64,000 bases of DNA. It comes from Smithellaceae bacterium (GTDB taxonomy: Bacteria > Desulfobacterota > Syntrophia > Syntrophales > Smithellaceae). The DNA lies in contig JAUYFM010000067.1 of assembly GCA_030690945.1 (NCBI GenBank), positions 1 to 64,000 of the forward strand, read 5' to 3'. A model generated the notes under the pieces. That model worked only from the letters and a program-made list of their open reading frames with translations. It did not search any database and was not told the origin of the DNA. Each line of letters opens with the position of its first letter. Position 1 is the stretch's first letter. The position numbers were made by a program, and so were the translations under genes. Below are positions 37,333 through 48,347 of this stretch, piece by piece.

Positions 37333-37644
37333 ATGGCTATGAGAGCAAAAAATCAGAATAAAACGGCAGCAGGCATCGACGTCCAGGAAACATGTTTCAC
37401 AGTCGTCGAAGAAATATTGGAAAAAAACTTGGATGATCTGGCTACGGTCTTATCCGTTTCCGACAACGGTAAAAGCAAACTTCACGAGGAAATCATGGCC
37501 ATGGTGGAAAAAGGTCTGTTCAAAATCGCCCTGCGTCGTTCCAGCTATGTCAAAAGCACAGCGGCGGCATTTCTGGGTATCAACCGCAATACGTTTACCG
37601 ATAAGATGGCCAAGCTGGGCATCGACTGCGAAAAAATCAAATAA
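37333..37644 (+). CDS. Fis-type helix-turn-helix protein
   Basis: C-terminal FKIALRRSSYVKSTAAAFLGINRNTFTDKMAKLGID resembles the Fis/NtrC HTH_8 domain. Confidence 0.75.
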   Translation: MAMRAKNQNKTAAGIDVQETCFTVVEEILEKNLDDLATVLSVSDNGKSKLHEEIMAMVEKGLFKIALRRSSYVKSTAAAFLGINRNTFTDKMAKLGIDCEKIK

Positions 37645-37989: not shown

Positions 37990-40900
37990 ATGATTTATAC
38001 AAAAATGTTCAATACTCTAAAAAAAACATTCTTTTTTATTACACATTGCCAAATTTTTATCGGCGCTCATCCTGATGCTGTTGATAAACCAGCCATCATA
38101 TTTTTCCCGCTTCTTCCCGGTCAACTGAATTGCGGTTTTGCCGGATTGATGACGTGCCGCCTGCAGAGAAATCCTTTGGATATGACAGCCGATCTCTCGC
38201 TTATTGCCGTGTGGAAAAAAGTTAAAAGCGCCGGCTTGCAGACTGTCTTCACCAGGGAAAATTCTGCAGGGAATTATTTAAACGGTATGGAAGCCATCCA
38301 TGCCCTGGATATGGCCGTAACCCAACTCAAACAGGAAGACGCGCAGGAATTTCTTTTTTTTCAGACAGACAGATCGGCTGATTTGTTTCACACCGCTCAA
38401 GACATGACAAAGTTTCTGACTGATGAAGAGAAGCAGTTGGAAGATCAGGACGCTGTTATCAGCTCTGTTGATCTGGAAATAATCAATAGCCGGCTTCTTT
38501 CGCTCAAGGACATCTGCTGGATTCTGGAAAAAGATATTCTGGCCAATCTGCAAAAAATCCTCTCGCTTTCCGGCGCAGAGAAATCTTCTGCGGTCAATCC
38601 TTCCGCCTTTCGGAAATACCGGAAACTCAATCTGCTGTTAAACGCGCTGGATCGTCTGGAAGTTCGGGGACGCGACTCGGCGGGTCTTCAGTTAACCTTT
38701 GTTCTGAAAAATGACCAAGTGTTGCAGGAGATCATCCGGCAGATCCGGAAAAACGGATGGGATGATGATTATCAGAGGCGGACGCAAAAAGGCGACCTTG
38801 TCAACCAGTCCATTTTCATGTCAACCGGCCATAAAGACAATCCCGGCAGCGCCAGCGTTACGTTCACCTATAAAACCTTTTCCATCGTCGGCGAGTTGGG
38901 ACGCAATGTAGTTGATTTGAGACATTCCATTCAAAAGGATCACATCCTGCAATGCTTTACCGTGGGAGATTCGGATTGTGAAACAGCCCTGACGCATACC
39001 CGCTGGGCTTCCGTCGGCTCCATCACCGAGGAAAATTGCCATCCGGTAAACAATTATACAACCATTCAGTCCAACCCTGCCTATCCTCATTACTCCAACA
39101 TCGATGCGCAAATCAATGGGGTTCTCAATGGGGATATCGATAATTATCCGGCGCTCCGGAAGGCTTTGGAGGAAGACGGCGAATTGATCGCCTCACAGGT
39201 TACCACCGACACCAAAATCATTCCGCTGCAAATCGAAAAGTATCTGAAGGCGGGACAGAATCTGACGGAGGCGTTCCGCCTAGCCGTCAATGATTTTGAA
39301 GGGTCGCAGGCCATCGCCATGACCTGCAACCTGGAACCGGGTAAAATGTTTCTGGCGCTCAAGGGCAGCGGCCAGTCCATTTATGTGGGCGTGAATGACG
39401 ATCAATATATGTTTTCTTCTGAACTTTACGGCCTGGTGGAAGTCATGCCACGTTTCATCAAGATGAACGGTGAAGAAGCGGGCAACGGCAAAGCCGGCGG
39501 ACAGATTTTCATCTTGGACCAGAATCGCGGCGGTGGCATAAAGGGCATCACCGCCTGCTTCTATGACGGCGTTGCCATTCCTCTCGCGGACGACGATTTA
39601 CAAACCGCGGAAATCACCACACGGGATATCGACCGCAGCGATTACCCGCACTTTTTCCTCAAGGAAATTTCCGAATCCGCCCTGTCCATTAAAAGAACCC
39701 TGCGTGGCAAATACCGAATCGTCGCATCCGGTCAATCCGCCCTGCAAGTCACGTTTAATTTGGGTCCGGATATCGTTCCTTCCGCTGTGCGCAATGGACT
39801 TCAAAACGGCTCAATTAAAAACATCATCGTCATCGGTCATGGAACAGCAGCCGTGGCAGGCCAAGTCTTAGCCGATACTCTGTCTTATTATCTCAAAGGC
39901 AGCCACCTCAACATCCTTGCCCGTATCGCCTCGGAACTAAGCGGTTTCGGACTGAAAGACGATCTGGCCGACACGCTCGTTATTCCGATCACGCAATCGG
40001 GCACGACCACCGACACCAACCGGGCTGTGGCCATGGCTCGGGAACGCAGCGCGCAAATCATCTCCATCGTCAACCGCAGACAATCGGATATTACCGCCAA
40101 ATCACACGGCGTCTTTTATACCAGCGACGGCCGAGATATTGAAATGTCAGTTGCCTCCACCAAAGCTTTCTACGCCCAAATTGTCGCGGGACAAGTGCTG
40201 GCGCTGTTTATCGCCCAGCTTTTGGGATCGCGGACCGATGAAGACATCGCGACAGCGCTCAAACATCTTGAATCCGCGCCACGTCTGATGGAACGGATAT
40301 TTGACAGTCGTGAAGCCATTGCCGCCTCGGTGAAAAAAACAGCCGGCAAGCGTTTCTGGGCGATTGTGGGCAGCGGCCCCAACAAGGCGGCGGCGGACGA
40401 AATCCGCATCAAACTGTCGGAGCTTTGCTACAAAACGATTTCCACGGACATCGTGGAAAACAAAAAACACATCGATCTGTCCGCCGAACCGCTGATTCTG
40501 GTATGCGCCGCCGGCAACCCCGAGGCGGTTGTGGAAGACGTGGTCAAGGATGTCGCGATATTCAGAGCACATAAGGCAACCACCGTCGTTTTCGCCGATG
40601 AAGGCGATCACCGATTTGACGCCGTCGCCGACGCGGTCATCGCCATACCCATCGCACCTGCGCCCCTGCCGGTGATCCTCAATACCATGGCCGGCCATCT
40701 GTGGGGTTACTTTGCGGCGCGTGCCATTGATGAAGAGGCACAGATTTTCCGCGAATTCCGCAGCCGCCTGGCGACGGAATTGACGAAAAGGACAAAAAAT
40801 AAATTATCTATTTTTGACATTTTTGACATGATTGCCGATGTTTCTTTTTGCCGGATCATTAATGATTTTTATGCCCTGTTCAAATCCCAAAGCCAAAACG

Positions 40901-41745
40901 GAGCGTTCAGCGTTCTAGCCGGCCAAACCATTGCCGATCTGTTGCTCTTGTTGAAATATGCCTCAGGCAAGCTGCCGCTGCAGGACATTCGCCAGGAATT
41001 CAAAGGAGAAGAGGATCTGCTCAATCCGTTTGATCTTCTGGACGCAATGCTCGGAACGGCCATTGATGAGTTGACTCGTCCGATTGACGCCATCCGCCAT
41101 CAGGCCAAAACCGTCACAGTGGGCACCAGCCGGAAGGAAAAAGAACTCAAAGGCATCGTGTTCGACCTGCTCGAAACCCTCAAGTTTTCCGCGAAAAATA
41201 TGACCTATCGCAATATTCTATCGATCCATCGCCTCCAGCCTGCCCTGGCAGCAGTACGGGGATATACGGTTTATGATATCAGCGGTCTTGATGAACAGAG
41301 TCATCCCACGCAAGATTCGACCATTGCGATCCGCGTCAAAAGCGGCGTGGCCAATGATATGAAGTCACGCGCGGATCATTCCACAACGCTGATGGGAGTG
41401 AAAAAAACCATCGTCAGCACAGGCCATGTCTATCTGGGCCGGGGCAAAACAGACAGCGCCCCGATTATGATCATCCCTCTGCAGGGTGCAGGCGCCCAAA
41501 TCGTGAACCTGCTGCTGATTCACATCATCTTCAATGAAACACTGAACCTGTCGGAAAAAATGGAGGTACTGGGATACCGGTATGACGATATCCGCAACCT
41601 GATTAATGAATACAACCTCGCCTGGAACGACCGGTATTTGGATACTCTGTCGTTGGAATCGCTTTTCAGCGAATCTATTGAAATAATTGCCGGACGGATA
41701 AAATCACAGCACAGCCAATTCCAGACTCAGCATAAACTTTCATAA
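37990..41745 (+). CDS. GlmS-like glutamine amidotransferase/double-SIS-domain protein with large insertion and C-terminal extension (1251 aa)
   Basis: GATase II motifs RLEVRGRDSAGLQL, THTRWASVGSITEENCHPV, LNGDIDNYPALR, TTDTKIIP, YPHFFLKEISESALSIKRTLRG; SIS1 VIPITQSGTTTDTNRAVAMA; SIS2 DEIRIKLSELCYKTISTDIVENKKHIDL; about 330-aa C-terminal region without an obvious GlmS counterpart. Confidence 0.85.
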   Translation: MIYTKMFNTLKKTFFFITHCQIFIGAHPDAVDKPAIIFFPLLPGQLNCGFAGLMTCRLQRNPLDMTADLSLIAVWKKVKSAGLQTVFTRENSAGNYLNGMEAIHALDMAVTQLKQEDAQEFLFFQTDRSADLFHTAQDMTKFLTDEEKQLEDQDAVISSVDLEIINSRLLSLKDICWILEKDILANLQKILSLSGAEKSSAVNPSAFRKYRKLNLLLNALDRLEVRGRDSAGLQLTFVLKNDQVLQEIIRQIRKNGWDDDYQRRTQKGDLVNQSIFMSTGHKDNPGSASVTFTYKTFSIVGELGRNVVDLRHSIQKDHILQCFTVGDSDCETALTHTRWASVGSITEENCHPVNNYTTIQSNPAYPHYSNIDAQINGVLNGDIDNYPALRKALEEDGELIASQVTTDTKIIPLQIEKYLKAGQNLTEAFRLAVNDFEGSQAIAMTCNLEPGKMFLALKGSGQSIYVGVNDDQYMFSSELYGLVEVMPRFIKMNGEEAGNGKAGGQIFILDQNRGGGIKGITACFYDGVAIPLADDDLQTAEITTRDIDRSDYPHFFLKEISESALSIKRTLRGKYRIVASGQSALQVTFNLGPDIVPSAVRNGLQNGSIKNIIVIGHGTAAVAGQVLADTLSYYLKGSHLNILARIASELSGFGLKDDLADTLVIPITQSGTTTDTNRAVAMARERSAQIISIVNRRQSDITAKSHGVFYTSDGRDIEMSVASTKAFYAQIVAGQVLALFIAQLLGSRTDEDIATALKHLESAPRLMERIFDSREAIAASVKKTAGKRFWAIVGSGPNKAAADEIRIKLSELCYKTISTDIVENKKHIDLSAEPLILVCAAGNPEAVVEDVVKDVAIFRAHKATTVVFADEGDHRFDAVADAVIAIPIAPAPLPVILNTMAGHLWGYFAARAIDEEAQIFREFRSRLATELTKRTKNKLSIFDIFDMIADVSFCRIINDFYALFKSQSQNGAFSVLAGQTIADLLLLLKYASGKLPLQDIRQEFKGEEDLLNPFDLLDAMLGTAIDELTRPIDAIRHQAKTVTVGTSRKEKELKGIVFDLLETLKFSAKNMTYRNILSIHRLQPALAAVRGYTVYDISGLDEQSHPTQDSTIAIRVKSGVANDMKSRADHSTTLMGVKKTIVSTGHVYLGRGKTDSAPIMIIPLQGAGAQIVNLLLIHIIFNETLNLSEKMEVLGYRYDDIRNLINEYNLAWNDRYLDTLSLESLFSESIEIIAGRIKSQHSQFQTQHKLS

Positions 41746-41871
41746 TGGCTGAAACTTTTGCAAATTAAGCGCTTGTCCGGATCAATATGAAAAAATCAAA
41801 TTTTCGTTTGACAAAGTAGTTTTTTGAAAGTAGGTATACGGCAAACGATAGCCGATTGCGATGGAAAACGC

Positions 41872-42873
41872 ATGAAAGAGCTTTTTAAGCCTGAAGACAT
41901 TGAACGAAAAGTCATCCTCATTCTGAAAATTTTGCACGAAAGCCCGGAACCGATGGGTGCGCGTGTGATTGCCCGCAGGATGTTGGAGCGCAACGTGCAA
42001 CTCAGCGAAAGGACGGTCCGCTATCATCTCAAGATTATGGACGAACGGGGACTTACCCAACTGGTAGGCAGGCGCGACGGCCGGGTCATCACAGAGCAGG
42101 GACTTGCCGAAGTATCCGACGCCCGTGTGCAGGACAAGATTGGCCTTTCCATTTCACGCATAGACATCCTTTCCTTCAAGACAACTTTTGATGTCAAAAA
42201 GAAGCGTGGTCTGGTGCCGGTTAATATCTCCTTCTTCCCGAAAGAGCAGTTTAATCAAGCCCTGAAGATCATGAAGCCTGTCTTTCAAAAAAAGCTGGCC
42301 GTCAGCTCACGCGTCGCAGTAGCACAGGCCGGCAAAACCCTGGGTGATATTGTGGTGCCTCAGGGTAAAGTGGGATTCGCAACCGTGTGCAGTATCGTGA
42401 TCAATGGCGTTCTTTTAAAGCATGGCATTCCCATTGATTCCAAGTTTGGCGGTATTCTCCAGATGAGAAAAGGGGAAATATTGAGATTTGTGGAGCTGAT
42501 TCATTACGCCGGCTCATCGCTCGATCCTTCGGAAATCTTTATTCGCGGAAAGATGACCTCTGTCGGACAAGTGGTGGCTGAAGGCGAGGGGAAAATTTTG
42601 GCCAATTTCCGTGAAATACCCGCACTGAGCCGAAGCCTGGTTGACCGCGTAGTCGATGACTTTGCCAAGACCGGTATTCATGGCGTCTTATCCATCGGCA
42701 GTATCGGCCATCCTGTGTGTCAGACCCATGTGGATATGAATAAGATCGGGATGATTCTTATCGGCGGCTTGAACCCGGTTGCTGCGGTCGGTGAAGAAGG
42801 TTTTGATGTGGACAATAAGGCCATGTCCACGGTGATGGAATTTGAAAAGCTAAAGGATATTGAGACGCTTTAG
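41872..42873 (+). CDS. NrpR-like transcriptional regulator (winged helix plus single NrpR/DUF128-type domain)
   Basis: ILKILHESPEPMGARVIARRMLERNVQLSERTVRYHLKIMDERGLTQLVGRRDGRVITEQGLAEV; FATVCSIVINGVLLKHGIPIDSKFGGILQMR. ATG 41872 preferred. Confidence 0.85.
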   Translation: MKELFKPEDIERKVILILKILHESPEPMGARVIARRMLERNVQLSERTVRYHLKIMDERGLTQLVGRRDGRVITEQGLAEVSDARVQDKIGLSISRIDILSFKTTFDVKKKRGLVPVNISFFPKEQFNQALKIMKPVFQKKLAVSSRVAVAQAGKTLGDIVVPQGKVGFATVCSIVINGVLLKHGIPIDSKFGGILQMRKGEILRFVELIHYAGSSLDPSEIFIRGKMTSVGQVVAEGEGKILANFREIPALSRSLVDRVVDDFAKTGIHGVLSIGSIGHPVCQTHVDMNKIGMILIGGLNPVAAVGEEGFDVDNKAMSTVMEFEKLKDIETL

Positions 42874-42930
42874 ATATCACGAGAAATGTCGTGAGCATAT
42901 CAACACATCGCGGCGTGTCATTGAATAAGG

Positions 42931-44202
42931 TTGCAGGGAGGCGCTATGGATTTTAAGCCGAAATCCTATGAAAAAATTTGTCAACTGATCGATCGCGGCG
43001 TAGATATTCCCAACCCCGGAACACTCGATATCGGCAATGAAATCAATGTCGATCAAATTTCGGGAAAGGGCGTTACGATTTATCCGGGTTGCCGGATCTA
43101 TGGCGCAAAAACTGTTATTTCCTCCGGCTGCAAGCTGGGCTGCGAGGCGCCGGTCACGATTGAAGACTGCCAACTTGGACCGGCAGTCGAGCTCAAAGGC
43201 GGCTTCTTCAGTAAATCTGTTTTTTTGGAAAAAGCAAATATGGGCATGGGCGCGCACGTCCGTGAAGGATGCATTCTGGAGGAAGAAGCCGGCGGCGCCC
43301 ATTGCGTAGGATTAAAACAAACCATTCTTTTTCCCTTCGTAACACTGGGCAGCTTGATCAACTTCTGTGACTGCCTGATGGCCGGCGGCACCAGCCGAAG
43401 CAACCATAGCGAAGTGGGAAGCTCCTATATCCATTTCAATTTCACGCCGGATGCCGACAAAACAACGCCTTCAATGCTTGGCGATGTCCCCCGGGGGGTG
43501 ATGCTCAACCAGCCCCCCATTTTTCTAGGTGGTCAGGGAGGGATCATCGGTCCCGTGCGTCTGGGATACGGCAATATCGTAGCGGCGGGCTCCATCCTGC
43601 GGCATGATTATTCCGGAGACAATCAACTAATCTTCGAGACGGCCCCGGCAAGCAGTGTGAAGGACTTCGTTCCAGCAGCCTACCCCGGGCTCGGTCGTGT
43701 TGTGGAAAACAATATTCTCTATCTGGCCAACCTGACGGCTCTTGAATCGTGGTACACGCATGTCAGAAAGCCGTTTCTGGAAATCCAACCATACGGGCTT
43801 CTCCTGTATGCAGGCGTCGCGGAACAACTTTCCGCAGCGAAAAAGGAACGTCTCAAAAGATTAAAGGCGCTGGCGGAGAAAGCCAAAGCGGCAGCCAGCA
43901 AAAACCGGCAGGGTGCAGCAGCCGGTGCAAGACAGGAGCTCTCTGGGCAAATCGGCTTCATAGAAGGACTCTTCACTGGGAAAATGCCGGACGTCCTGGC
44001 CGCGACGGATCCATCCCGTGAGGCCTTTCTCAATGATTTCGGAAAGGCCACAGAAAACAACAAAGCGAATTACCTCACGGCTATTCAGGGTCTGCCCGTG
44101 GAGATTTCGTTAAAAGGTGTTATATGGCTAAATGGCATAGTCGATGCTCTTGCCCAAAAGGTCACGCAGGCTCTGCCGTCACTGGATTTATTCAAAAAAT
44201 AA
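42931..44202 (+). CDS. left-handed beta-helix protein, UDP-N-acetylglucosamine pyrophosphorylase-related
   Basis: Hexapeptide-like segments (GKGVTIYPGCRIYGAKTVISSGCKLGCEAPVTIEDCQLGPAVELKGG), CDCLMAGGTSRSNHSEVGSSYIHFNFTP. Likely start ATG 42946 (MDFKPKSYEK). Confidence 0.72.
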   Translation: MQGGAMDFKPKSYEKICQLIDRGVDIPNPGTLDIGNEINVDQISGKGVTIYPGCRIYGAKTVISSGCKLGCEAPVTIEDCQLGPAVELKGGFFSKSVFLEKANMGMGAHVREGCILEEEAGGAHCVGLKQTILFPFVTLGSLINFCDCLMAGGTSRSNHSEVGSSYIHFNFTPDADKTTPSMLGDVPRGVMLNQPPIFLGGQGGIIGPVRLGYGNIVAAGSILRHDYSGDNQLIFETAPASSVKDFVPAAYPGLGRVVENNILYLANLTALESWYTHVRKPFLEIQPYGLLLYAGVAEQLSAAKKERLKRLKALAEKAKAAASKNRQGAAAGARQELSGQIGFIEGLFTGKMPDVLAATDPSREAFLNDFGKATENNKANYLTAIQGLPVEISLKGVIWLNGIVDALAQKVTQALPSLDLFKK

Positions 44203-44216
44203 TAGTCAACCACTTC

Positions 44217-44267
44217 GCGAGCTCGCTGTCGTGGCATGAAATGAACGTATTTATATCGCGAGCTCGC
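44217..44267. repeat. two copies of the 10-bp palindrome GCGAGCTCGC (44217-44226 and 44258-44267) upstream of glmM
   Basis: Read directly; spacing 41 bp start-to-start; longer shared context tcGCGAGCTCGCtg. Confidence 0.8.
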
Positions 44268-44360
44268 TGCGGCGAATTAACGCTCGTCCCGCAACAGCGG
44301 GATTAAAATAATTTTGATCAGTTGATTCACAAGCAGTAAATCATTGCAAAAAGGAGAATA

Positions 44361-45713
44361 ATGATGGGGAAATTATTTGGAACCGACGGAATCAGAGGAG
44401 AAGCCAACCGCTATCCGATGAACGCGGCAATAGCTTTCAGTGTCGGGCAGGCCGTCGCACACCTGTTTAAAAAAGACAAACACCGTGCCCACGTGATCAT
44501 TGGAAAGGATACCCGGATTTCGGGATACATGCTGGAGAGTTCACTGGAAGCGGGAATCACGTCCATGGGAGGGTGCCCTATCCTTGTCGGCGTGCTGCCC
44601 ACCCCGGGAATTGCCTTCATCGCCCAAAGCATGCGGGCTGACGCCGGCATTGTCATTTCCGCTTCACACAATCCCTTCCAGGATAATGGCCTGAAAATTT
44701 TTGGCGGTGACGGTTTTAAATTGACCGATGAAGAGGAAGACAGTATTGAAGACCTGATCCTTAATGAAAAGCTTTCTGAACTAATGCCGACAGCCAGCGG
44801 AATGGGAAAAGCCGCCCGCCTGGATGATGTTAACGGACGTTACATCGTTTTTCTGAAAAATTCTTTTCCCCGTAATCTTTCCATGGAGGGGATGAAAATC
44901 GTTTTGGATACCGCCAACGGCGCAACATACAAAGTGGCACCTAACGCCTTTATTGAACTGGGCGCCGATGTTGAAGTCATTCACAACACGCCGGACGGTG
45001 TAAACATCAACGCCAAGTGCGGATCACAGCACACAGAGGACCTCAGGAAGAAAGTCGTGGAAAGCGGCGCGGCCATTGGCCTGGCCTTTGACGGGGACGG
45101 CGACCGCCTCATTGCCGTGGATGAAAAGGGTAACGAGATCACCGGCGATCAGATTCTCATCATCTGTGCCAATATCTTGAAAAAAGAAGGCAAATTGAAA
45201 AACGATCTTCTGGTCAGCACGGTGATGAGTAACCTCGGCTTAAAGGTTGCCTGCAAGAAATACGGCTTTAAGCACCATGCCTCTAAAGTGGGAGACCGCT
45301 ATGTCCTCGAAGACATGCTGCGGATGGGATCCGTGATCGGTGGTGAGGAAGCAGGTCATATGATCTTTCTGGATCATCACACCACTGGTGACGGCATTAT
45401 TGCCGCCATGCAGCTCGTTGCCGCGATGGCGAAAGAAGGCAAACCACTTTCCGAACTGGCGCGCATGATGGATATTTTCCCGCAGAAATTGATCAATGTT
45501 GATGTCAAAAGCAAGCCGGATCTTGATAAAGTTCCGAAGCTGGTAGAAGCCATCTCGCAAATAGAAAAAGAACTGGGTGAAGAAGGACGCGTTCTGGTCC
45601 GGTATTCCGGCACTCAGAATATGTGTCGTGTCATGGTGGAAGGACCTTCCGATCTGGTAACCGCAAAATATTGTCAACAGCTCGCCGATATCGTAAAAAG
45701 TGAACTGGGATAG
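44361..45713 (+). CDS. glmM: phosphoglucosamine mutase
   Basis: KLFGTDGIRGEANRYPM; GIVISASHNPFQDNGLKIFGGDGFKL; AFDGDGDRLIAVDEKG; VRYSGTQNMCRVMVEG. Confidence 0.95.
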   Translation: MMGKLFGTDGIRGEANRYPMNAAIAFSVGQAVAHLFKKDKHRAHVIIGKDTRISGYMLESSLEAGITSMGGCPILVGVLPTPGIAFIAQSMRADAGIVISASHNPFQDNGLKIFGGDGFKLTDEEEDSIEDLILNEKLSELMPTASGMGKAARLDDVNGRYIVFLKNSFPRNLSMEGMKIVLDTANGATYKVAPNAFIELGADVEVIHNTPDGVNINAKCGSQHTEDLRKKVVESGAAIGLAFDGDGDRLIAVDEKGNEITGDQILIICANILKKEGKLKNDLLVSTVMSNLGLKVACKKYGFKHHASKVGDRYVLEDMLRMGSVIGGEEAGHMIFLDHHTTGDGIIAAMQLVAAMAKEGKPLSELARMMDIFPQKLINVDVKSKPDLDKVPKLVEAISQIEKELGEEGRVLVRYSGTQNMCRVMVEGPSDLVTAKYCQQLADIVKSELG

Positions 45714-45734
45714 TTTGAAGGAGAACAATAAATC

Positions 45735-46694
45735 ATGGGAACAACCGTTTTTGTTACACGAGACTTTGCACACATGAGTGAAGTGGCGGCAGACTTTGTC
45801 ATCAAGAAAACGATCGGCATCCTTAAAGCAAAAAATGGAGCTGTTTTGGGACTGGCAACGGGGAATTCACCCACGGGGCTCTATAAGCACTTCGCCAAAG
45901 CGGCCAACGAGGGCCGGTTTGATTCTGGACGGATCCGCAGTTTCAATCTCGACGAATATGTCGGCCTGCCGGGCGATAATATTCAGCAGCGGGTTCTGCA
46001 CCCCGAGAGTTACGCTTATTTCATGATTCAGGAACTTTTCAGTCATCTCAATAAGAAATTTATTGAAACCCGCGTGCCCTACGGCTCGCTGATTGACCAG
46101 AAAACATTGATCAAAGAATTGAAGGAAAACAAAAACGACTGGGAATTCAAAGGCACAGACGCGGGAAAATCCATTGCCATCAAGGCAAAACCGGCATCCG
46201 CCTATCTGGCCTGGATCTGGAAAGAAATTCTGGACGGCTACTCCCGGAAAATAAAATCGGCGGGAGGAATCGACCTGCAGATTATCGGCGTGGGCGGTCG
46301 CGGCCATGTGGCGTTCCACGAATCAGGCATTCCTTTTAAAGGCAGTTCAGTGCTGCTGGTCAAACTCGACGACAACACAATTGCCAATGCCGTTGCCGAC
46401 GGACATTTCAGCAAAAAATCAGATTCACCGCAGTACGCCATCAGTATGGGAGCGGAGCTGGTTTATCAGGCCAGAACGGTCGTTTTGGTAGCCAACGGCC
46501 AGCGAAAAACAGAGTCTGTGACCCGCTCGCTTCTGGGTGATGTAACCCCTGAAATTCCCATATCGCATGGTCAGCAATACGCGAAACAAGGCGGTGAGTT
46601 GATTTATGTTCTCGACCGCGTTGCGGCCGGAGGCCTTCTGGCCAATCCAAAGGAACTCAAAGATAGGGGCATCGTTTTAAAGAACATGGCTTAA
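45735..46694 (+). CDS. NagB-like glucosamine-6-phosphate isomerase/deaminase family protein with divergent active site
   Basis: LGLATGNSPTGLYKHFA; SFNLDEYVGLPGDNIQQRVLHPESY; IIGVGGRGHVAFHESGI. Confidence 0.85.
   Translation: MGTTVFVTRDFAHMSEVAADFVIKKTIGILKAKNGAVLGLATGNSPTGLYKHFAKAANEGRFDSGRIRSFNLDEYVGLPGDNIQQRVLHPESYAYFMIQELFSHLNKKFIETRVPYGSLIDQKTLIKELKENKNDWEFKGTDAGKSIAIKAKPASAYLAWIWKEILDGYSRKIKSAGGIDLQIIGVGGRGHVAFHESGIPFKGSSVLLVKLDDNTIANAVADGHFSKKSDSPQYAISMGAELVYQARTVVLVANGQRKTESVTRSLLGDVTPEIPISHGQQYAKQGGELIYVLDRVAAGGLLANPKELKDRGIVLKNMA

Positions 46695-48347
<1,653 letters not shown>

Follow-up and report, generated by a model that had tools for sequence, protein, structure and literature searches.

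GlmS and GlmU, textbook enzymes and also drug targets, take part in the essential synthesis of UDP-GlcNAc. In some glutamine amidotransferases, among them glutamate synthase and PurF of Bacillus subtilis, the residues preceding the catalytic Cys must be removed; to our knowledge, no propeptide is known for any GlmS. For the nitrogen regulator NrpR of methanogens the operator is of the type GGAA-N6-TTCC. The methanogen protein is a 2-oxoglutarate-responsive repressor (PMC9765008). Relatives of GlmS, of the C-terminal half of GlmU and of NrpR lie side by side in the locus described here.

The locus occupies part of a window of 64,000 nucleotides, the whole stretch of DNA that was analysed, which belongs to a 3.15-Mb genome whose nearest named relatives are metagenome assemblies of Smithella-group Syntrophales (Syntrophaceae/Smithellaceae). 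Five consecutive open reading frames, all on the plus strand, encode a diverged glucosamine-6-phosphate synthase of 1251 aa, here called GlmSx (37990..41745); NrpR, a regulator with winged-helix and NRD domains (41872..42873); a left-handed beta-helix protein, the probable GlcN-1-P N-acetyltransferase, which resembles a detached C-terminal half of GlmU with a helical C-terminus (42946..44202, the most likely start being the ATG at 42946 behind GGGAGG); a canonical phosphoglucosamine mutase, GlmM (44361..45713; 579 bits against a TIGR01455 cut-off of 447.55); and NagBx, a diverged glucosamine-6-phosphate deaminase/isomerase (45735..46694). The open reading frames and the domain matches, including GATase and SIS domains in the 1251-aa protein, confirm the gene order and domains given in the preliminary description. 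In relatives the constant upstream neighbour is a small Fis-type HTH gene (37333..37644, plus strand), and the constant downstream neighbour is pyrG, encoding CTP synthase (46734..48347, plus strand), which is possibly co-transcribed. The same families and neighbours recur, far beyond chance, on numerous contigs of Syntrophales as well as in further families of the phylum, the genomes compared being mostly metagenome assemblies.

GlmSx aligns with canonical GlmS across the glutaminase domain and both SIS domains (hhalign E=2.2e-50), and its AF2 model (pLDDT 80.7) retrieves human GFAT-1 and E. coli GlmS as its best Foldseek matches (E about 1e-22). It shares with GlmS/GFAT, the L-glutamine:D-fructose-6-phosphate amidotransferase (PDB 2j6h, 3ooj, 6r4e), an Ntn glutaminase with its catalytic Cys (putatively N-terminal in the mature protein), two SIS domains, a Lys in the VTV tail and an identical order of motifs, but it is twice as long, about 26% identical, and falls below the NCBIfam cut-off, reaching 230 bits (about 218 in the genome search) against the 418 bits of the TIGR01135 equivalog. 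Its sequence places it in a sister subfamily of GlmS, outside TIGR01135 membership. The glutaminase motifs (Cys48-Gly, RGxDSAG, HTRWA, NGxxxNY and TDT) and the isomerase-site equivalents of Lys485, Glu488, His504 and Lys603 do not vary among 29 homologs, while at the phosphate site Gln348, Ser349 and Thr352 of E. coli GlmS are kept and Ser303 and Ser347 are replaced by Ala and Thr, respectively.

The additional length of GlmSx is distributed along the protein. Forty-seven residues precede the catalytic Cys48 (37990..38130, plus strand), and their motif, IxxGxxPxxVxxxxIIxFPxxxxxLxCG, is kept even in distant families; in two separate lineages (G028 and G188) the GlmSx frames open directly with Met-Cys-Gly and lack the extension. 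By analogy with glutamate synthase, the extension fits a propeptide, putatively self-cleaved, that would need removal to free the Cys. The likeness to glutamate synthase and B. subtilis PurF consists in an Ntn glutaminase with residues ahead of its Cys, but the extension of GlmSx is long and conserved in sequence. An all-helical insert of ~150 aa lies within the glutaminase domain (38167..38604, plus strand, the limits being approximate), as judged from the alignment to E. coli GlmS and the helices of the AF2 model, and a further ~110 residues are inserted ahead of the C-tail. The tail itself, RPIDAIRHQAKTVTVGTSR (41077..41133, plus strand), aligns its catalytic Lys (K1040) with LAKSVTVE of E. 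coli GlmS and is invariant in 29 sequences. Whereas this tail is terminal in canonical GlmS, in GlmSx it is internal, ~210 residues before the protein end, and is followed by an extra alpha/beta domain (41134..41742, plus strand) that is folded in the AF2 model and has no Pfam match. We know of no earlier description of this combination of extension, inserts and internal tail, and the literature, as far as it was covered, yielded nothing on a long GlmS.

GlmSx appears, from the distribution of sequences, to replace GlmS in a number of families that belong to one phylum. The genome search found no canonical GlmS in the window genome, and none of 30 Syntrophales relatives has one above the curated cut-off, while 25 of the 30 have a match, at least, to GlmSx. 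Of 345 genomes drawn evenly from the phylum, 37, from some 16 families (genomes within one family not being independent of each other), carry the long GlmSx, and at least five carry a shorter relative; only one of these 42 (G210) has canonical GlmS beside it. All 24 comparison genomes have GlmS, but they were picked for ordinary-length hits and this figure is not independent; the Fisher values calculated in the analysis are to be taken with both kinds of dependence in mind. The shorter relatives (G034, G071, G130, G354 and G336; two families) are 1137-1170 aa long, and their genomes contain a full-length GlmU in three of five cases and the beta-helix protein in none.

GlmU shows a corresponding division. 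A full-length GlmU is absent from all 30 Syntrophales relatives, nearly all of which have a uridyltransferase of ~250 residues alone, and in the window genome this half is a separate protein of 252 aa (G000:C22). The beta-helix protein contains no uridyltransferase domain and gives only weak matches in the domain search, mainly to the C-terminal half of GlmU; by profile comparison it aligns with the whole acetyltransferase half (GlmU 246-447; hhalign E=1.3e-16), and it is the best match to that half within its own genome. Like the GlmU acetyltransferase domain, it has a left-handed beta-helix, the entry motif GVxxxxP, the phosphate-binding positions and, invariant throughout the family, the positions of Arg333, Lys351 and Asn386. 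It differs in being separate from the uridyltransferase, in carrying a helical C-terminus of about 180 aa, and in having Ser at the position of the catalytic His363, though His159 and His168 are invariant nearby and one or other may take the catalytic role. The AF2 model, which averages pLDDT 62 and stays under 50 over much of the helix part, is too poor to place these residues, and a fold search based on it was discarded as meaningless in favour of the profile comparison. The protein occurs in all 37 genomes with long GlmSx, only one of which has a full GlmU, and in all four tested genomes without any GlmS; among 30 loci carrying its gene, 28 have glmM (22) or GlmSx (another six) as a neighbour. 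Homology to the GlmU C-half, co-occurrence with a detached N-half and adjacency to glmM or GlmSx together make it most likely that the beta-helix protein is the GlcN-1-P acetyltransferase. A literature search of partial coverage found no report of a split GlmU. Elsewhere in the phylum, five genomes (G183, G230, G157, G044 and G129) have canonical GlmS and GlmU matches that stop at about 240-320, and lack the beta-helix protein; a split or shortened GlmU may be more widespread in the phylum, with another acetyltransferase.

The changed His363 position and the helical C-terminal half could instead mean that the beta-helix protein is a structural or regulatory partner of GlmSx or GlmM and that an unrelated enzyme acetylates, and some members of the phylum, which have a truncated GlmU without a beta-helix protein, fit such an arrangement. 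Against it stand the homology specific to the GlmU C-half, down to entry motif and phosphate-binding positions, the rank of best such match in its genome, the company of the detached N-half and the adjacency to glmM, and we regard this explanation as rather improbable. A broader objection is that the whole locus might serve a specialised aminosugar, for a surface polysaccharide for example, with general UDP-GlcNAc made elsewhere, since the three sugar proteins other than GlmM are all strongly diverged and fall below their family cut-offs. We consider this very unlikely: neither the window genome nor the 30 relatives offer a canonical GlmS or full GlmU to make the general precursor, GlmSx takes the place of GlmS across its many families, and the glmM of the locus is canonical. 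The variant amino-sugar route put forward in the preliminary description is therefore supported, because a diverged GlmS without canonical GlmS is found together with a detached acetyltransferase half and a separate uridyltransferase; the neighbourhoods recur, and the separate canonical glmS-glmU pair that might have accounted for UDP-GlcNAc was looked for and is absent from the window genome and these 30 relatives.

The regulatory part of that description fares differently. NrpR has a winged HTH and an NRD domain, both above Pfam cut-offs (NRD 279.7 bits against 25 bits). Its likely start is the ATG at 41872 rather than the TTG at 41824, because a conserved promoter and operator occupy the stretch opened by the TTG, and the idea of a protein N-terminus starting there was rejected on this ground. 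A promoter-like element, TTGACA-17-TAGGTA with a weak -10 (41808..41836, plus strand), is kept upstream of nrpR across relatives and upstream of gdhA in the window genome; a consensus promoter scan did not call it. Just after the TTGACA element lies the palindrome CGGCAAACGATAGCCG (41839..41854), a candidate NrpR site with the consensus CGGCAA-N4-TTGCCG, which in 17 of 19 genomes matches at 11-12 of 12 positions ahead of nrpR (G004 and G029 have no good copy there), against 7-8 typically in random stretches. A perfect copy precedes the distant gdhA of the window genome, on another contig (G000:C11). Upstream of GlmSx the best match is 8/12 in the window, and the homologous loci that were checked give 7-9; these values are at background level, and control of GlmSx itself by NrpR was rejected.

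Like the methanogen protein (PDB 3nek domain), this NrpR has a winged HTH and NRD domain and occurs beside nitrogen-assimilation genes, but it is bacterial, has one NRD domain and a different candidate operator, and is associated with gdhA, glutamate synthase and sugar genes; nothing on NrpR in these bacteria was found in the part of the literature covered. In most relatives nrpR is directly upstream of gdhA, in others it is next to glutamate synthase genes, and in several Smithella-group genomes the nrpR-gdhA pair separates GlmSx from the acetyltransferase-glmM genes; Syntrophales loci outside the Smithella group have no NrpR near GlmSx. These neighbourhoods mark NrpR as a nitrogen regulator that entered the locus as part of a travelling nrpR-gdhA pair, and the idea of a regulator belonging to the cluster itself is not supported. 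Nor is the proposed control of the glutamine-consuming step, since the operator follows GlmSx and precedes nrpR, a position that should give it control over nrpR, the acetyltransferase gene, glmM, nagBx and perhaps pyrG. The preliminary interpretation as a whole is thus supported for the variant route and not for these two regulatory claims. Alongside glutamate synthase, three loci (L193, L194 and L195, in G013, G010 and G014) encode NRD-domain proteins of about 270-315 aa that lack an HTH and are possible 2-oxoglutarate-sensing partners without DNA binding. One contig (L043, 1-12566, in G004) has flanking genes and NrpR 96-98% identical to the window, whereas its GlmSx, acetyltransferase and GlmM are only 72-78% identical and nagBx is missing; this mosaic reflects either recombination or an assembly chimera.

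Since nrpR and gdhA move as a unit, and the core of GlmSx, acetyltransferase and glmM occurs without NrpR in most families, the operator might control only nrpR and gdhA, the sugar genes being transcribed independently and their neighbourhood a passenger of the insertion. This is possible, though doubtful, given that only 72 bases separate nrpR from the acetyltransferase start, with no terminator-like site on the plus strand between them. Two rearranged loci also argue against it: in one (L044) a deletion has fused the acetyltransferase gene to the first codons of nrpR, with the promoter and operator of nrpR ahead of them; in the other (L072) only a decayed remnant of nrpR is left, the acetyltransferase gene is still preceded by promoter and operator, and an intact nrpR-gdhA is present elsewhere in that genome. 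Neither has a functional nrpR at this position, and since in both the acetyltransferase gene still directly follows the promoter and its operator, it is plausible that NrpR controls the acetyltransferase-glmM part through the candidate operator.

NagBx scores 133.7 bits against the 236.9 bits of the NagB family (TIGR00502), below that cut-off. It has in common with the deaminase Asp72, His143, Glu148 and Lys208, but differs in the replacement of Asp141 by Arg (13 of 13 members compared), the loss of Arg172, an insert of ~50 aa and its position in a biosynthetic operon. Five genomes carry the acetyltransferase and lack every form of GlmS (G009, G022, G353, G018 and G021), and in the first three, as in G018 at a contig end, NagBx directly follows glmM. 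This makes four of five GlmS-less genomes with NagBx versus about half of the others, an enrichment that is not significant. The 97%-complete G021 has acetyltransferase and glmM and lacks GlmS, GlmSx and NagBx, and G018, which has no GlmSx, carries a lone 50-residue match to the GlmSx C-terminus downstream of pyrG (L143, 4024-4173). E. coli NagB working in reverse is said to make GlcN-6-P in glmS mutants (Vogler et al., 1989). A reversal has likewise been noted for animal GNPDA (PMC10138107). Because four of the five GlmS-less genomes carry NagBx right after glmM, we tentatively suggest that NagBx could run in the aminating direction as an ammonia-dependent GlcN-6-P synthase, G009, G022, G353 and probably G018 keeping acetyltransferase, glmM and nagBx without GlmS.

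We propose that the whole locus is the cell's de novo route to UDP-GlcNAc in remodelled form. GlmSx would convert fructose-6-P and glutamine to GlcN-6-P after loss of its N-terminal propeptide has exposed Cys48; GlmM would convert GlcN-6-P to GlcN-1-P; and the beta-helix protein would acetylate GlcN-1-P, from which the separate 252-aa uridyltransferase would make UDP-GlcNAc. Within the Smithella group an nrpR-gdhA pair would have settled between GlmSx and the acetyltransferase-glmM genes, with gdhA now elsewhere in the window genome. NrpR would act at two places, its own promoter and gdhA, by way of CGGCAA-N4-TTGCCG, so that transcription starting ahead of nrpR and running on into the acetyltransferase gene, glmM, nagBx and perhaps pyrG would follow nitrogen status, GlmSx, without an operator, being outside this control. 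As a complete explanation, joining the remodelled route to NrpR control of the downstream genes, we think this probable. Homology, residue conservation, the pattern of gene replacement, neighbourhoods and the common operator were computed; enzymatic activities, propeptide cleavage, binding of NrpR and its response to 2-oxoglutarate we infer from them. The chemistry is known, and the sequences point to protein architectures and a regulatory link as what is new.

A set of families in one phylum would thus have replaced both GlmS and GlmU, the former by an enzyme of double size with an internal tail, which seems to need maturation, and the latter by two proteins. Annotation pipelines miss GlmSx and the split GlmU, and for that reason the pathway maps drawn for these little-studied anaerobes seem to have gaps. 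The common operator offers a concrete candidate for a bacterial NrpR regulon, in which a type of nitrogen-status switch previously known from methanogens would be tied to genes for cell-wall precursors. The GlmS-less genomes raise an ammonia-dependent route to GlcN-6-P; if that were true, then where both enzymes are present an NrpR-controlled nagBx would switch between glutamine-fed and ammonia-fed amino-sugar synthesis.
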